From IMG/VR virus record IMGVR_UViG_3300036944_000403, positions 1-22,134 of that record: 22,134 nucleotides of DNA, one strand, 5' to 3'. The DNA comes from a virus. How positions within the stretch are numbered: position 1 is the first letter of the stretch; each line of letters starts with the position of its first letter. The position numbers and the translations under genes were made by a program. This document shows positions 10,335 to 18,109 of the stretch, in pieces. The notes under the pieces were generated by a model. It was not told the DNA's origin. It made no database searches and saw only the letters and a list, made by a program, of their open reading frames with translations.

Positions 10335-10367
10335 TTGATGCAAAGATAGTTCTTTTTTGTATATTTG
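10335..10367 (+). promoter_or_regulatory. promoter for the leader RNA / replication initiator
   Basis: A perfect -7 box TATATTTG (10360-10367). The -33 side is weak: TTG at 10335-10337 with 22-nt spacing. The expected start is about 10374, giving a leader of about 100 nt before the initiator ATG at 10472. On the opposite strand a -7-like TATCTTTG reads from 10348 to 10341. Confidence 0.55.
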
Positions 10368-10373
10368 TGGTGT

Positions 10374-10467
10374 TGAAAACGGAATGAGCAGATTCCTATT
10401 CAGAAAACCTTATTGCCCCTTTGATTTTGTATCACTGCTCTGATATAATTTCATCGGGGCTTTTTTT
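10374..10467 (+). ncRNA. structured leader or small RNA with predicted kissing loops
   Basis: Two hairpins carry complementary 6-nt loops. Hairpin 1: GGAAT (10381-10385), loop GAGCAG (10386-10391), ATTCC (10392-10396). Hairpin 2: an 8-bp apical stem (10427-10434 with 10441-10448, one G-U pair) around loop CTGCTC (10435-10440), then 2x2 mismatches, 3 bp (10422-10424 with 10451-10453), 2x2 mismatches, and GCCCC (10415-10419) with GGGGC (10456-10460). The loops pair perfectly over six bases. Hairpin 2 is followed by seven T (10461-10467), so it also looks like an intrinsic terminator. The RNA lies between a promoter and the initiator ATG. Either a short RNA of about 90 nt or a 5'-leader attenuator is possible. 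I do not recognise it as a known RNA family. Confidence 0.6.
10415..10467 (+). terminator. terminator-like end of the leader RNA
   Basis: The base stem GCCCC/GGGGC of hairpin 2 followed by TTTTTTT, ending 5 nt before the initiator ATG at 10472. If it terminates, most transcripts would stop before the initiator gene and read-through would set its expression. The stem is long and interrupted by two 2x2 internal loops, which is unusual for a simple terminator. Confidence 0.55.
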
Positions 10468-10471
10468 ATTT

Positions 10472-11134
10472 ATGAAAGAGCAAAATGAAGAATTGGGAAT
10501 GTTTGTGTTATTCCCTACACACTACCTGGAACACATGACACCACGCCAAGCCGTATTAATGGGAATGTTAATCGGAATGGCAAAACGAAGCGGTTACGCT
10601 TATCCATCCAACAAAACAATTGGGGCAATCTTGAACATGACAACAATCACAGTTCAAAGGGAATTAGCAATCTTGGAAGAAAAGGGATTTTTAACAAGAC
10701 AATTGATTCGTGACAACAACAATCAGGTAGTATCAAGAAAGATATACCCTCATATCAAAACTGATATACCCCTCATATCAAATTTGATACCACCCTCCCC
10801 TCAAAAGTGCAATAGTAATAAAGATAAAGATATAAGTATAACTGATAATAATAAAGATACTTACCCGTTTGAACAATTTTGGGAAATGTACAAGAAGAAG
10901 GGGGTGCGGTCCAAGGCGTTGAGGTCGTTTGAAAAGTTGACCAAGGCCGAAAAGGAATTGTTATTGGTGTATATCCCAAAGTATGTCAAAAACCATGTAG
11001 ATTCCGATAAACTCAAATACATTCCGCACTTTTCAACTTTCTTAAATGAAAAAAGGTGGCACGATGAATTGCCGTATGAAATAAAAAATACCATTGAATT
11101 CACACCAAAGAAACCTAAAATTGCAACACTATGA
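10472..11134 (+). CDS. replication initiation protein (winged-helix plus C-terminal domain)
   Basis: A 220-aa protein. Residues 18-95 form a winged helix-turn-helix (MTPRQAVLMGMLIGMAKRSG, then YPSNKTIGAILNM, TTITVQRELAILEEKGFLTR), the type found in phage initiators. A low-complexity Asn/Asp/Lys-rich linker (96-132) is encoded by the iteron and AT-rich DNA at 10741-10860. The C-terminal part (133-200: FEQFWEMYKKKG, YIPHFSTFLNEKRWHDEL) is the small domain common to phage initiators. The likely role is to bind the origin inside its own gene and load the DnaB-type helicase encoded next (ATGA overlap). ATG 10472 is chosen; a TTG start at 10421 would run through the leader hairpin. Confidence 0.78.
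   Translation: MKEQNEELGMFVLFPTHYLEHMTPRQAVLMGMLIGMAKRSGYAYPSNKTIGAILNMTTITVQRELAILEEKGFLTRQLIRDNNNQVVSRKIYPHIKTDIPLISNLIPPSPQKCNSNKDKDISITDNNKDTYPFEQFWEMYKKKGVRSKALRSFEKLTKAEKELLLVYIPKYVKNHVDSDKLKYIPHFSTFLNEKRWHDELPYEIKNTIEFTPKKPKIATL
10741..10808 (+). repeat. three iteron-like repeats inside the initiator gene
   Basis: Three tandem repeats of 22-23 bp begin at 10741, 10763 and 10786. The first two share GATATACC and then CTCATATCAAA, with one extra C in the second. The third is degenerate (GATACCACCCTCCCCTCAAA). Units one and two contain an inverted pair GATAT/ATATC, and TATCAAATTTGATA (10776-10789) is a perfect 14-bp palindrome across the second junction. This is the arrangement expected for initiator binding sites. 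Confidence 0.6.
10809..10860 (+). other. AT-rich tract next to iterons (candidate origin unwinding element)
   Basis: About 50 bp with roughly 16% G+C, purine-rich on the + strand (repeats of AATAAAGATA type near 10817-10859). It follows directly on the iterons and encodes the disordered linker of the initiator. By analogy to the lambda origin inside gene O it could be the unwinding site. Function is inferred. Confidence 0.5.
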
Positions 11135-12378
11135 ACACTGAACAAATGTTAATTAGCAACATCCTTTTCTATGCGGATGCAAGGCACTTTTTGCCACAGA
11201 TAAATCAAAACTGGTTCAAAGACCCGTTGTGTAAAAAGGTCATTGAGGTAATTACCAAACTTTACTATGGTAACGAAGAAATTGACTATCTCACTTTGAT
11301 GCCCCATTTTACCAACAAAGAATTCATTGATGTGATAACACTACAACAGAACGCAAGTGGAATCACCAATGTGAAACCACACTTAAAAAAGTTGGAGTAC
11401 ACATACATCAAAGAACAGTTGGTTGAAAGCATATCGGCAATTGACACGACTAAAGAACTTGGTGAATTAATCGAGGATATTCAAAACGCGTTGAATAGTA
11501 CCACATTTTCAACACAACAAGAACCTGAAAGCATCGTGAAGGTTACGAACAAAGTGGTGGATCAAATCGTTGCAAACGCGGAAAAGGGAGGTCAATTGGT
11601 TGGAAAGGAAACGGGATGGAAATTCTTGGATAAGTATTTGGGCGGTTACAATGATGGCGATTTGATTGTAATGGCGGGTAGACCTGGAATGGGTAAAACT
11701 GCAATTGCATTAACACTTACAAAGGAATTTGCACAACGAGGTGGAAAGGCGTTATTCATTTCACTTGAAATGAGTTCAGAGCAATTGGCAAAAAGGTATG
11801 TGTCATTGATTGGGCATTTGGAAAATTGGAAAATGCGAAACGGGGTTTTAACCAAACAAGAAATTGAAAAAATCATTCATGTTGCCAACCATCAAGAAAT
11901 TGAATTTTTTATTGATGATGACCGCGTGGGGGATTTGGAAAAAATCAAATCAAAGGCAAGGTTACACAAAGCACGAAAAGGACTTGATTTGTTGGTGATT
12001 GATTATTTGCAACTTATGAAAGGGACAAAGCAAAGCCGTGAACAAGAAGTTGCAGAAATATCGCGCGGTTTGAAATTGTTGGCCAAGGAATTAAAGTGTA
12101 CAATTATTGTATTGGCGCAGTTGTCACGGAAGCCAGAAGATAGGGCAGACAAACGCCCGTTGTTGTCAGACCTTCGCGAGTCAGGTGCGATTGAACAAGA
12201 TGCCGATGTTGTCATGTTCCCTTTTCGCCCCGCTTATTACGAAGAAGAAAAGCCACAAATTGAAGATGCGGAATTGATTATCTCAAAAAATAGAAACGGT
12301 GAATGTGCAACAATACCAACGACATACGAGGGGCAATACACCATGTACAAAGAAAGTTTGCCACCAATACAATTTTAA
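11131..12378 (+). CDS. dnaB: DnaB-type replicative helicase
   Basis: A 415-aa 5'-3' replicative helicase of the RecA-fold SF4 family. The N-terminal helical domain (1 to about 95) is shorter than in bacterial DnaB (about 450-470 aa total). The core shows Walker A GRPGMGKT (183-190), SLEMSS (211-216), Walker B LLVIDYLQL (287-295, Asp291), LAQLSR (328-333) and the SDLRESGAIEQDAD segment (346-359). It overlaps the initiator stop by ATGA, so initiator and helicase are made together, as in other phage replication modules. The host or a phage loader would place it on DNA; no DnaC-like gene is visible. Confidence 0.92.
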   Translation: MNTEQMLISNILFYADARHFLPQINQNWFKDPLCKKVIEVITKLYYGNEEIDYLTLMPHFTNKEFIDVITLQQNASGITNVKPHLKKLEYTYIKEQLVESISAIDTTKELGELIEDIQNALNSTTFSTQQEPESIVKVTNKVVDQIVANAEKGGQLVGKETGWKFLDKYLGGYNDGDLIVMAGRPGMGKTAIALTLTKEFAQRGGKALFISLEMSSEQLAKRYVSLIGHLENWKMRNGVLTKQEIEKIIHVANHQEIEFFIDDDRVGDLEKIKSKARLHKARKGLDLLVIDYLQLMKGTKQSREQEVAEISRGLKLLAKELKCTIIVLAQLSRKPEDRADKRPLLSDLRESGAIEQDADVVMFPFRPAYYEEEKPQIEDAELIISKNRNGECATIPTTYEGQYTMYKESLPPIQF

Positions 12379-16085: not shown

Positions 16086-16657
16086 TACAAACAGTAAAAA
16101 CCAAAGACATTATCGCCAACGAAAATAACCCACGGGTAATCAAAGACGATAAATTTAAGAAGTTAGTTCAATCCATTAAGGACTTCCCACAAATGCTACA
16201 ACTCCGACCTATTGTTGTGAACGATGAAATGGTTGTGTTGGGTGGTAATATGCGTTTAAGGGCAGTTCAGGAAGTGGGGTTGAAGGAAGTTCCAATCATC
16301 AAAGCATCAGACCTAACCGAAGAACAACAAAAAGAGTTTATCATCAAAGACAATGTTGGGTTTGGTGAATGGGATTGGGATGTTTTGGCGAACGAATGGG
16401 AACCAGAATTGTTGACCGCCTGGGGCTTGGATGTTTGGCAACAACCCGTTGAGGTGGATTACTCACTTTTGGATGAGGAAGATTTATCGGATGAACTTTC
16501 AGACATGGCCGACGGCGTAAAGAAAGCCATCCAAATCGAGTTTGAGCCAGACCATTATGATGAAGCGTATGAGTTGGTGAAGTTTTGGCGTGAACGCGGG
16601 GCGTATGTTGGCCACATGATTATGTTGTATCTTAAAGAAGAAAAGGACAAGTTATGA
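16082..16657 (+). CDS. ParB-like nuclease-domain protein
   Basis: A 191-aa protein with a ParB/Srx-type N-terminal domain: NPR (16-18), RPIVVNDEMVVLGG (42-55) and GGNMRLRA (54-61), then the KDNVGFGEWDWDVLANEW segment (89-106), typical of phage ParB-like proteins. The C-terminal part (125-191) is acidic, then charged, without a DNA-methylase domain. Phage ParB-like genes often stand next to DNA-modification genes; here the next two encode an FkbM-type methyltransferase and a TET/JBP-like dioxygenase. The ATG overlaps the HNH stop and the TGA overlaps the next ATG (ATGA), so the set is one operon. Confidence 0.8.
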   Translation: MIQTVKTKDIIANENNPRVIKDDKFKKLVQSIKDFPQMLQLRPIVVNDEMVVLGGNMRLRAVQEVGLKEVPIIKASDLTEEQQKEFIIKDNVGFGEWDWDVLANEWEPELLTAWGLDVWQQPVEVDYSLLDEEDLSDELSDMADGVKKAIQIEFEPDHYDEAYELVKFWRERGAYVGHMIMLYLKEEKDKL

Positions 16658-17346
16658 TGCAAAGTTCCATTAAAGGAATCAAGTTTTTCCACCGTGAAAA
16701 CACCAGTGATTTGAAAACATTTGAAGAAGTCATTGGGAAGGATGTATATCAAAAGAAAGGGATGAAGATATTGCCAGGTGAGGAATGGGTTGATTGTGGG
16801 GGCAATGTTGGGGCATTCACTTTGTTAGCGTGTGCATTGGGTGCAAAAGTTACGGTGTACGAACCCGATCCGAATAACTGCGCGATGATTGAAAAGAATT
16901 TAGCGTTGAACGGATTCACGGCCAATGTAGTTTGTGCGGGGTTAGTTCACAACCAAGTGAAGAAGGCAAATTTGTATGTGGGCAATAACGGCAATGTATG
17001 GCGTAATTCTATGTTCAAGAACTGGAACGGAAAAGGATTGAAGGTTGACTGCGTTAATTTTGACGAAGCGGTTAAAGATGGGGTGTGTGTAAAAATGGAC
17101 ATAGAAGGTGCAGAGATGCCGATATTGGAGAACACCGAGCGCAAATTCAAGAAATTAGTGTATGAATGGAGTTTTGATATAGACCCATCATTATCAAGAT
17201 TTTGGGGCATAATAGACAAACAAAAGAAAGATTACAAAATCAATTTTGAAGAACATAGAACTTGCTACGATGACAAAAGAGAAGGGCTATGGAAAAAGAG
17301 TTGGTTTCCCGCGTGTACAAATGTATTTTGCTATGAAAAGAATTGA
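16654..17346 (+). CDS. FkbM-type SAM-dependent methyltransferase
   Basis: A 230-aa Rossmann methyltransferase. SAM-site motifs: VDCGGNVGAFTL (46-57), YEPDP (69-73), and MDIEGAE (148-154), the last typical of the FkbM family, which methylates hydroxyl groups of sugars or related small molecules. The N-terminal 40 residues are family-specific and the C-terminal 70 include a WSFDIDPSLSRFW stretch. Sandwiched between ParB-like and dioxygenase genes, it could act on a modified base, a sugar attached to DNA, or a surface glycan. The substrate is not visible in sequence. Confidence 0.8.
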   Translation: MMQSSIKGIKFFHRENTSDLKTFEEVIGKDVYQKKGMKILPGEEWVDCGGNVGAFTLLACALGAKVTVYEPDPNNCAMIEKNLALNGFTANVVCAGLVHNQVKKANLYVGNNGNVWRNSMFKNWNGKGLKVDCVNFDEAVKDGVCVKMDIEGAEMPILENTERKFKKLVYEWSFDIDPSLSRFWGIIDKQKKDYKINFEEHRTCYDDKREGLWKKSWFPACTNVFCYEKN

Positions 17347-18109
17347 TTTAATAAAACAACCACACGATATCCAAATAGGTCAAGACTGCCCGTATATCGA
17401 ACCAAACATCACAGAAGATTGCATTTTTTATGAAGATGGAATCGCAGTTGGTTTCTACATAAAACAGATGCCCGAAAAGATGTGCAAGTTGGCCAATTTG
17501 GCAAATGCAGAATTGCGAACAAAGAATGTTCCCAAAAGCGAAATGAAGCGTTCAAGTGGTTTGACATCGCAAGACAAATCGAAAGAGGTTTTGCAGTATT
17601 CAACCATCATTGGAAGCATCCCGCCAAAGCCACACATGAAAAGACCATACGCAAGTATAAGTTCAGTTCACCAAGTTAAGACCGCGCAAAACTTTATTAA
17701 GGCGATGTTGATGTTGGCAAAAGAAAGTGAACAACTCATTAAACAAATTATGCCAGAACAATACGAAAAGCAGATGGAGTTATTCAAGGCAGTTCCCGAG
17801 CAATGGAAGTTTGCAAACCTTTTCACAAGTTCAATTTCTAATTACAACATTCCCGCAGCGTTTCACCGTGATGCTGGAAACATAGTTGGCGCGGTGAATG
17901 TGATTATTACAAAGCGTTTGAATAGCAAAGGTGGAAACCTTCATGTACCTGATTACGGAGCAACCATGGATAGCGCAGACAATTCAATGTTGGTTTACCC
18001 CGCATGGAAAAATGTGCATGGAGTTACCCCAATCATCCCAACACATGAAGGAGGTTATAGGAATAGTTTGGTATTTTATCCGTTGAAAGCATTTGTTGGA
18101 TTAAAATAA
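17333..18109 (+). CDS. TET/JBP-like 2-oxoglutarate/Fe(II) dioxygenase
   Basis: A 258-aa protein with the double-stranded beta-helix signature of the TET/JBP group. Iron ligands are His178 and Asp180 (FHRDAGN) and His229 (NVHGVTP). Arg243 (GGYRNSLVFYP) would hold 2-oxoglutarate. Upstream are a DCPYIEPNITED segment and GSIPPKPHMKRPYASISSVH, which I recall from phage members. Such enzymes oxidise 5-methylpyrimidines in DNA, for example 5-methylcytosine to 5-hydroxymethylcytosine. Start placed at ATG 17333; ATG 17270 or TTG 17246 would lengthen the overlap with the methyltransferase gene. It shares an operon with the ParB-like and FkbM-type genes. Substrate and exact subgroup are not shown. Confidence 0.7.
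   Translation: MKRIDLIKQPHDIQIGQDCPYIEPNITEDCIFYEDGIAVGFYIKQMPEKMCKLANLANAELRTKNVPKSEMKRSSGLTSQDKSKEVLQYSTIIGSIPPKPHMKRPYASISSVHQVKTAQNFIKAMLMLAKESEQLIKQIMPEQYEKQMELFKAVPEQWKFANLFTSSISNYNIPAAFHRDAGNIVGAVNVIITKRLNSKGGNLHVPDYGATMDSADNSMLVYPAWKNVHGVTPIIPTHEGGYRNSLVFYPLKAFVGLK

Follow-up and report, generated by a model that had tools for sequence, protein, structure and literature searches.

The window analysed here is the whole of a 22,134-nt IMG/VR virus record, in which a short leader precedes a replication operon on the plus strand. The leader carries a promoter element of the Bacteroidota type, two hairpins with complementary loops and a tract of seven T residues that ends 4 nt before the ATG of a replication initiator gene, which is followed by a gene for a DnaB-like helicase. 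The features of the locus and the evidence for each are as follows.

10360–10367, plus strand: -7 promoter element TATATTTG, Bacteroidota type (sequence)
10373–10403, plus strand: hairpin 1 (folding; family pairing)
10373–10377/10399–10403, plus strand: outer stem of hairpin 1 (folding)
10381–10385/10392–10396, plus strand: inner stem of hairpin 1 (folding; covariation)
10386–10391, plus strand: hairpin-1 loop GAGCAG, partner of 10435–10440 (100% paired in the family alignment)
10404–10414, plus strand: unpaired linker from hairpin 1 to hairpin 2 (8–12 nt across the family)
10415–10460, plus strand: hairpin 2, terminator-like, base GCCCC/GGGGC (folding z -7.7; family covariation)
10435–10440, plus strand: hairpin-2 loop CTGCTC, partner of 10386–10391 (sequence, folding, family covariation)
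10461–10467, plus strand: T7 tract, predicted termination point (sequence)
10472–11134, plus strand: initiator of 220 aa, ATG at 10472 (phrog_270, E 5.6e-26; Pfam HTH_36)
11131–12378, plus strand: DnaB-like replicative helicase, same operon as the initiator (Pfam DnaB_C, E 1e-86)

Folding of the window leader gave a z-score of -4.4, and -7.7 for hairpin 2 alone, with none of 200 shuffles equally stable. Of 20,000 dinucleotide-shuffled leaders, 3 contained a pair of hairpins with complementary loops of 6–7 nt, and when both strands of the window were scanned under strict hairpin-plus-kissing criteria, this leader was the sole match. A preliminary description of the window had proposed a kissing-loop RNA in the initiator leader, with a -7 box just upstream and a second hairpin that has two 2x2 internal loops, a GCCCC/GGGGC base and a T7 tract; each of these parts lies where it had been placed. 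The 5-bp stem it described for hairpin 1 also stands, as the inner stem, and the outer stem had been overlooked. Elsewhere in the window, a gene for a Tet/JBP-family oxygenase domain protein, labelled queuine tRNA-ribosyltransferase in PHROGs, adjoins one for an FkbM-type methyltransferase (17246–18109 and 16654–17346); these are possibly DNA-base modification genes.

A conserved RNA before replication operons

The family comprises 149 copies in viral contigs, 86 of them distinct, all arranged as a Bacteroidota-type promoter, hairpin 1 and terminator-like hairpin 2 followed by the first gene of a replication operon. This architecture was present in all 35 viral contigs reached via the initiator protein, in 30 of which the element lies directly before the initiator and in five before a small ORF upstream of it. 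Further elements were recovered with DNA patterns that did not specify loop pairing and with a covariance model without loop pairing (R1). In two of the DNA patterns the first base of loop 1, or some of its other bases, was preset, which accounts in part for loop positions 1 and 2 being invariant; none fixed loop-2 bases or pairing. A loop-complementarity scan supplied part of the 38 sequences used for model building; complementarity had no role in selecting the 51 distinct elements added later. Those pattern matches without complementarity that we inspected were chance matches in coding sequence. The model-fitted alignment used below (A3) holds 85 elements. The most diverged member found by the model (L354, 11647–11744) has an 8-nt loop, TGTGGTAG, with the partner CTACCACA.

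The window had no match in Rfam 15 at the gathering threshold, three relatives had none up to an E-value of 5, and loose thresholds yielded for the window leader only chance-level matches, all far below gathering. The RNA family to which positions 10373–10467 belong is not represented in Rfam, in keeping with the earlier remark that the structure was not recognised as a known family. A pattern scan of ~85,000 genomes gave two chance matches and no prophage copy, and DNA similarity searches of GenBank phages and plasmids found no homologue of the family proper. Among GenBank phages, the window initiator protein has only remote relatives, in phages of Firmicutes. By terminase and DUF6291-type initiator the nearest cultured relatives are Flavobacterium phages, and RNAs of the window type are carried by many phages of Flavobacterium-like bacteria. 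Some records of ~31 kb look complete by gene order; Phage_integrase was absent in 23 records and a resolvase in 10, many of the records being fragments.

Nearly all records hold one RNA per phage. One record of 61,996 nt whose ends are repeated over ~127 bp (G010) carries two elements (L303 and L304). The two halves share many homologous genes, and each has its own RNA, with the different loop codes GTCGCAT and GTGAGAG. A second RNA copy in one phage was rejected here in favour of two ~31 kb phages joined, each with one RNA; the join could be an assembly artefact or a real cointegrate.

The genes that follow the RNA are not related to one another: HTH_36 initiators, DUF6291, Lin1244_N, a GIY-YIG-like protein and small ORFs all occur in first position. 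DnaB is present in 21 of 23 records and, where both are listed, lies on the same strand, ~0.5–1.4 kb downstream. The RNA is a module common to non-homologous initiators, a point beyond the reach of the preliminary description, which had a single sequence before it.

A modular plus-strand RNA with covarying loops and stems

Sequence comparison across the family demonstrates that the two loops co-evolve. Perfectly complementary 7-nt loop pairs are found in 84 of the 85 elements of A3, and the window pairs at 6/6 positions. The codes number 15 in all, and on a tree from which the loops were left out the loop type switches 21 times or more. Across 84 distinct sequences, 100% of the cells in the kissing helix are paired and 123 are changed on both sides; all 593 of 593 cells are Watson–Crick with zero G–U, whereas hairpin 2 has 17.6% G–U. 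Covariation in the kissing helix was 0.597, compared with 0.122 for shuffles; sliding the helix gave no more than 0.142. Because related sequences inflate covariation counts, columns were also simulated on the tree built without loops, and the five variable kissing pairs covaried above all 300/300 simulations (G 53–183, null maxima 19–88). Cognate loop duplexes averaged -8.95 kcal/mol against -2.95 kcal/mol for permuted ones (0/2000 permutations). Runs of 6–7 contiguous pairs were given by 11 of 210 non-cognate loop combinations, and neighbouring loop codes could cross-pair through G–U or a shorter run. A YUNR U-turn, a feature looked for in antisense RNA loops, was not seen on inspection of the 7-nt loops.

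The stems covary too, with changes on both sides at three of the five pairs of the hairpin-1 inner stem (98.3% of cells paired) and at 17 of the 19 pairs of hairpin 2 across the family; support for the outer stem of hairpin 1 is weak in the AGTTRT-stem subfamily. Covarying column pairs outside the model were few and weaker and formed no helix, and the strongest all fall inside it. Compensatory changes, on which the preliminary description had staked its reading, are thus abundant in homologues and include the changes between two hairpin loops that mark a kissing-loop RNA in general. Mean entropy was 0.92 bits in the linker, 0.69 in the hairpin-1 internal loop and outer stem, and 0.77 in the inner stem; a metabolite riboswitch was rejected, since neither of the first two sets of columns clearly exceeds the inner stem in conservation.

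Each of the 86 distinct elements has TAnnTTTG directly before hairpin 1, 79 in exact form and the others as a near variant, with 29 of the elements having come from a pattern that required it. The first T run after hairpin 2 spans 6–9 nt in 72 of the 86 and 4–5 nt in the other 14, so that the predicted terminator-like end noted earlier in the window recurs in every element, and the model ends mostly 1–5 nt before the ATG. Together, the promoter box, the T tract in fixed register and the frequency of G–U in hairpin 2 point to a plus-strand RNA, which is most likely the functional molecule; a short RNA of about 90 nt, as first proposed, fits the same features. A scan for antisense promoters of the TAnnTTTG type found them in 9 of the 84 elements, where 11.8 were expected, indicating no enrichment, and the window has none. 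No conserved leader ORF was found, and the short leader ORF of the window is not kept in its relatives. Most loop codes place an AUG at the hairpin-1 loop with a stop codon immediately after. The inner stem and loop of hairpin 1 often spell AUGUAG, AUGUGA or AUGUAA (e.g., L074, L127), and this AUG-stop is absent from some codes, such as GUCGCAU, GUACGAG and that of the window. A conventional anti-terminator was rejected by a permutation test for co-evolution with the 5' arm of the terminator, in which cognate pairing averaged -5.07 kcal/mol versus a null of -5.03 and 855 of 2000 permutations were as low. Taken column-wise, one candidate anti-terminator helix was 76.6% paired with weak covariation, mostly a subfamily split.

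Phages with 97–99% identical promoter and gene bear unrelated RNAs. The window and L004 share 98.7% of the promoter and 98.0% of the gene but 65% of the RNA, and the window and L011 have RNAs 98% identical and genes 76–80% identical. The same swap of flanks versus RNA is seen in L163/L383 and L331/L418, and in L331/L378 the RNA and promoter are 100% identical with unrelated sequence after them. These precise replacements resemble the exchange of specificity cassettes and give the RNA the look of an identity tag; they could also reflect easy recombination at conserved flanks, not selection on the code.

Diverged versions are found in cultured phages, with loops GTGAGACG/CGTCTCAC in five Flavobacterium phages (tooticki6-1 and relatives), GTGAGAAG/CTTCTCAC in morran9-1, GTGAGATG/CATCTCAC in elemoA_2-5C and CGGGCAGG/CCTGCCCG in phage 11b. 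Between the tooticki6-1 group, morran9-1 and elemoA one loop pair differs and passes through three complementary states, C–G to A–U to U–A. A second element in tooticki6-1 (L442, 11597–11690), with loops GTCGTCG/CGACGAC, ends a few nt upstream of a gene for an HNH-type endonuclease and is identical in four related phages (L442, L454–L456). Weaker candidates, with weaker fold support, precede replication genes in Cellulophaga phi13:2 (L449; CTCTCACAA/TTGTGAGAG) and Olleya Harreka_1 (L450; GTGGTGG/CCACCAC). The family covariance model did not match the diverged elements of cultured phages. They were found by a loop-complementarity scan, for which a shuffled background gives 0.3–0.7 expected matches per genome, so each needs individual support and they are weaker evidence than A3. 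The scan gave no match in FpV9, a Porphyromonas phage and one gut contig. Phages of the hosts LMO6/LMO9, among them tooticki6-1 of Flavobacterium sp. LMO6, have been described as virulent (PMC7077304).

Proposed mechanism and alternatives

These features suggest an unrecognised RNA switch for phage replication. With a terminator between promoter and initiator, attenuation is the natural reading; it is inferred from sequence, as are the start and stop sites. Transcription would begin just past the TATATTTG box, and hairpin 1 would form, then hairpin 2. Once hairpin 2 is fully closed, RNA polymerase would halt on the T7 tract, a few nt short of the initiator, and free a short two-hairpin RNA, a leader of ~95 nt, while read-through would produce the mRNA for initiator and helicase. 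The released RNA may then pair with nascent leaders that carry the same loop code, hairpin 1 of either molecule with hairpin 2 of the other, which would remove hairpin 1 from play and favour termination. The outcome would be a self-limiting, type-specific brake on replication. Because no co-evolving anti-terminator was found, nothing beyond kissing defines the ON state. We give about an even chance to the combined model, in which the element attenuates the replication operon and its released leader recognises its own type by kissing. The trans step taken alone falls short of even and is speculative, as is the sign of its effect.

Kissing in cis with both hairpins closed would need 93–106 Å (bends of 0–60 degrees) and the linker spans ~63 Å, lengths estimated from idealised helices with flexibility ignored. 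Opening ~4–5 bp of the terminator base, or the outer stem of hairpin 1, would make it feasible; because the linker is too short, kissing within one molecule comes at the expense of part of the fold. The same estimate indicates no geometric conflict for kissing between two molecules. Geometry, the strict code, its diversity and the cassette swaps together favour self-recognition between RNA molecules. We tentatively propose, at clearly under an even chance, that the terminated leader is its own antisense partner and stops initiator synthesis only on genomes of the same code, so that exchangeable RNA incompatibility types carried by virulent phages would decide which co-infecting genome replicates.

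A switch confined to cis, in which kissing within one nascent RNA attenuates the replication operon and the codes drift neutrally, is possible, though we consider it less likely than the combined model. It could delay or weaken closure of the terminator base or clamp the finished fold, and so act as a fixed read-through or a timer. Partner loops ~50 nt apart in one transcript have a high local concentration, the contact is within reach once one of the two stems above is open, and a single RNA per phage is the rule. Neutral drift, however, predicts G–U or mismatch intermediates, which are absent from the 593 kissing cells although hairpin 2 tolerates them; replacement of the whole RNA between near-identical flanks is unnecessary for a cis contact, and tooticki6-1 has two elements with different codes. 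The promoter and terminator of its own and the occurrence before unrelated genes would also suit a free-standing phage small RNA or oligomer with a packaging, structural or host-RNA-directed role, multimerising through its loops, its position being incidental. The kissing loops of ROOL and GOLLD, first seen by covariation, proved intermolecular (PMC12286853). Such a role is improbable for an RNA that nearly always heads a replication operon, mostly ends within 1–5 nt of the ATG and has no three-way junction; the large terminase is an ordinary Terminase_3 protein.

Adjacency to the initiator gene and recombination as a cassette would fit a DNA-level element, in which hairpins extruded in single-stranded DNA would serve as an origin of replication or as a primosome or recombination site, the swaps being the product of recombination at that spot. 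This is very improbable: every element has its promoter box and T tract on one strand in fixed register, G–U-type pairs are common on that strand only, and complementary loops would have no obvious role. The preliminary description had looked to IncI/IncB-type replicons, where a pseudoknot activates initiator translation under antisense-RNA control, and pairing of a loop with the leader near the start codon is indeed shared. That parallel is not supported by comparison with the family and we regard it as the least credible reading: antisense promoters of the TAnnTTTG type are not enriched, a leader ORF is not conserved, and hairpin 2 is terminator-shaped with the RNA's own loop as partner.

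This would be a new regulatory RNA family, widespread among phages of a bacterial group of major ecological importance, placed at the control point of replication, with at least 15 naturally diversified loop codes. Action in trans would mean RNA-based incompatibility among virulent phages and would yield a set of kissing-loop pairs tested by evolution. As cultured phage–host pairs carry diverged versions, the family is open to test now.

Comparison with known systems

Kissing loops in phage RNAs are known from phi29 pRNA, GOLLD and ROOL, the last two of which form homo-oligomers (PMC12286853). The present RNA differs in place and size and in having no three-way junction, no large ornate fold and no Rfam match. 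The phi29 pRNA type was rejected on the two-hairpin fold and Terminase_3, in place of a three-way junction and a gp16-type packaging ATPase. The P4 CI and P1 C4 immunity RNAs are small phage RNAs from the leader of a replication operon that act with premature termination; they belong to temperate elements, and their pairing partners are leader sequences apart from the RNA itself. Our family likewise consists of small phage RNAs at the head of a replication operon with predicted premature termination, but here the RNA would be its own partner, and integrase (23 records) and resolvase (10 records) are absent in a set with many fragments.

Among plasmids, control of the IncI/IncB type also uses a leader peptide, whose translation opens the target hairpin. 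Its antisense RNA kisses the rep leader (PMC10724649). As in the IncI/IncB/IncK and ColE1 copy-number RNAs, short complementary loops define the type; those systems belong to plasmids and use an antisense RNA, whereas here we find virulent-looking phages and a sense RNA only. In pT181, an intrinsic terminator lies between the promoter and the initiator gene repC, and specificity is set loop to loop (PMC4878617). The terminator between promoter and initiator, the setting of specificity by kissing and the interior loop under the sensing loop are shared with pT181 (PMC4878617), where an antisense RNA acts as partner and the anti-terminator is a sequence of its own; in our family the putative terminator likewise precedes the initiator start codon and both loops lie in one sense RNA, but for these two defining features of pT181 we found no enrichment of antisense promoters of the TAnnTTTG type and no co-evolving anti-terminator. 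We assign the RNA to no known family, and its logic appears most like pT181 attenuation (PMC4878617) combined with a plasmid-like loop specificity (IncK, PMC10724649).
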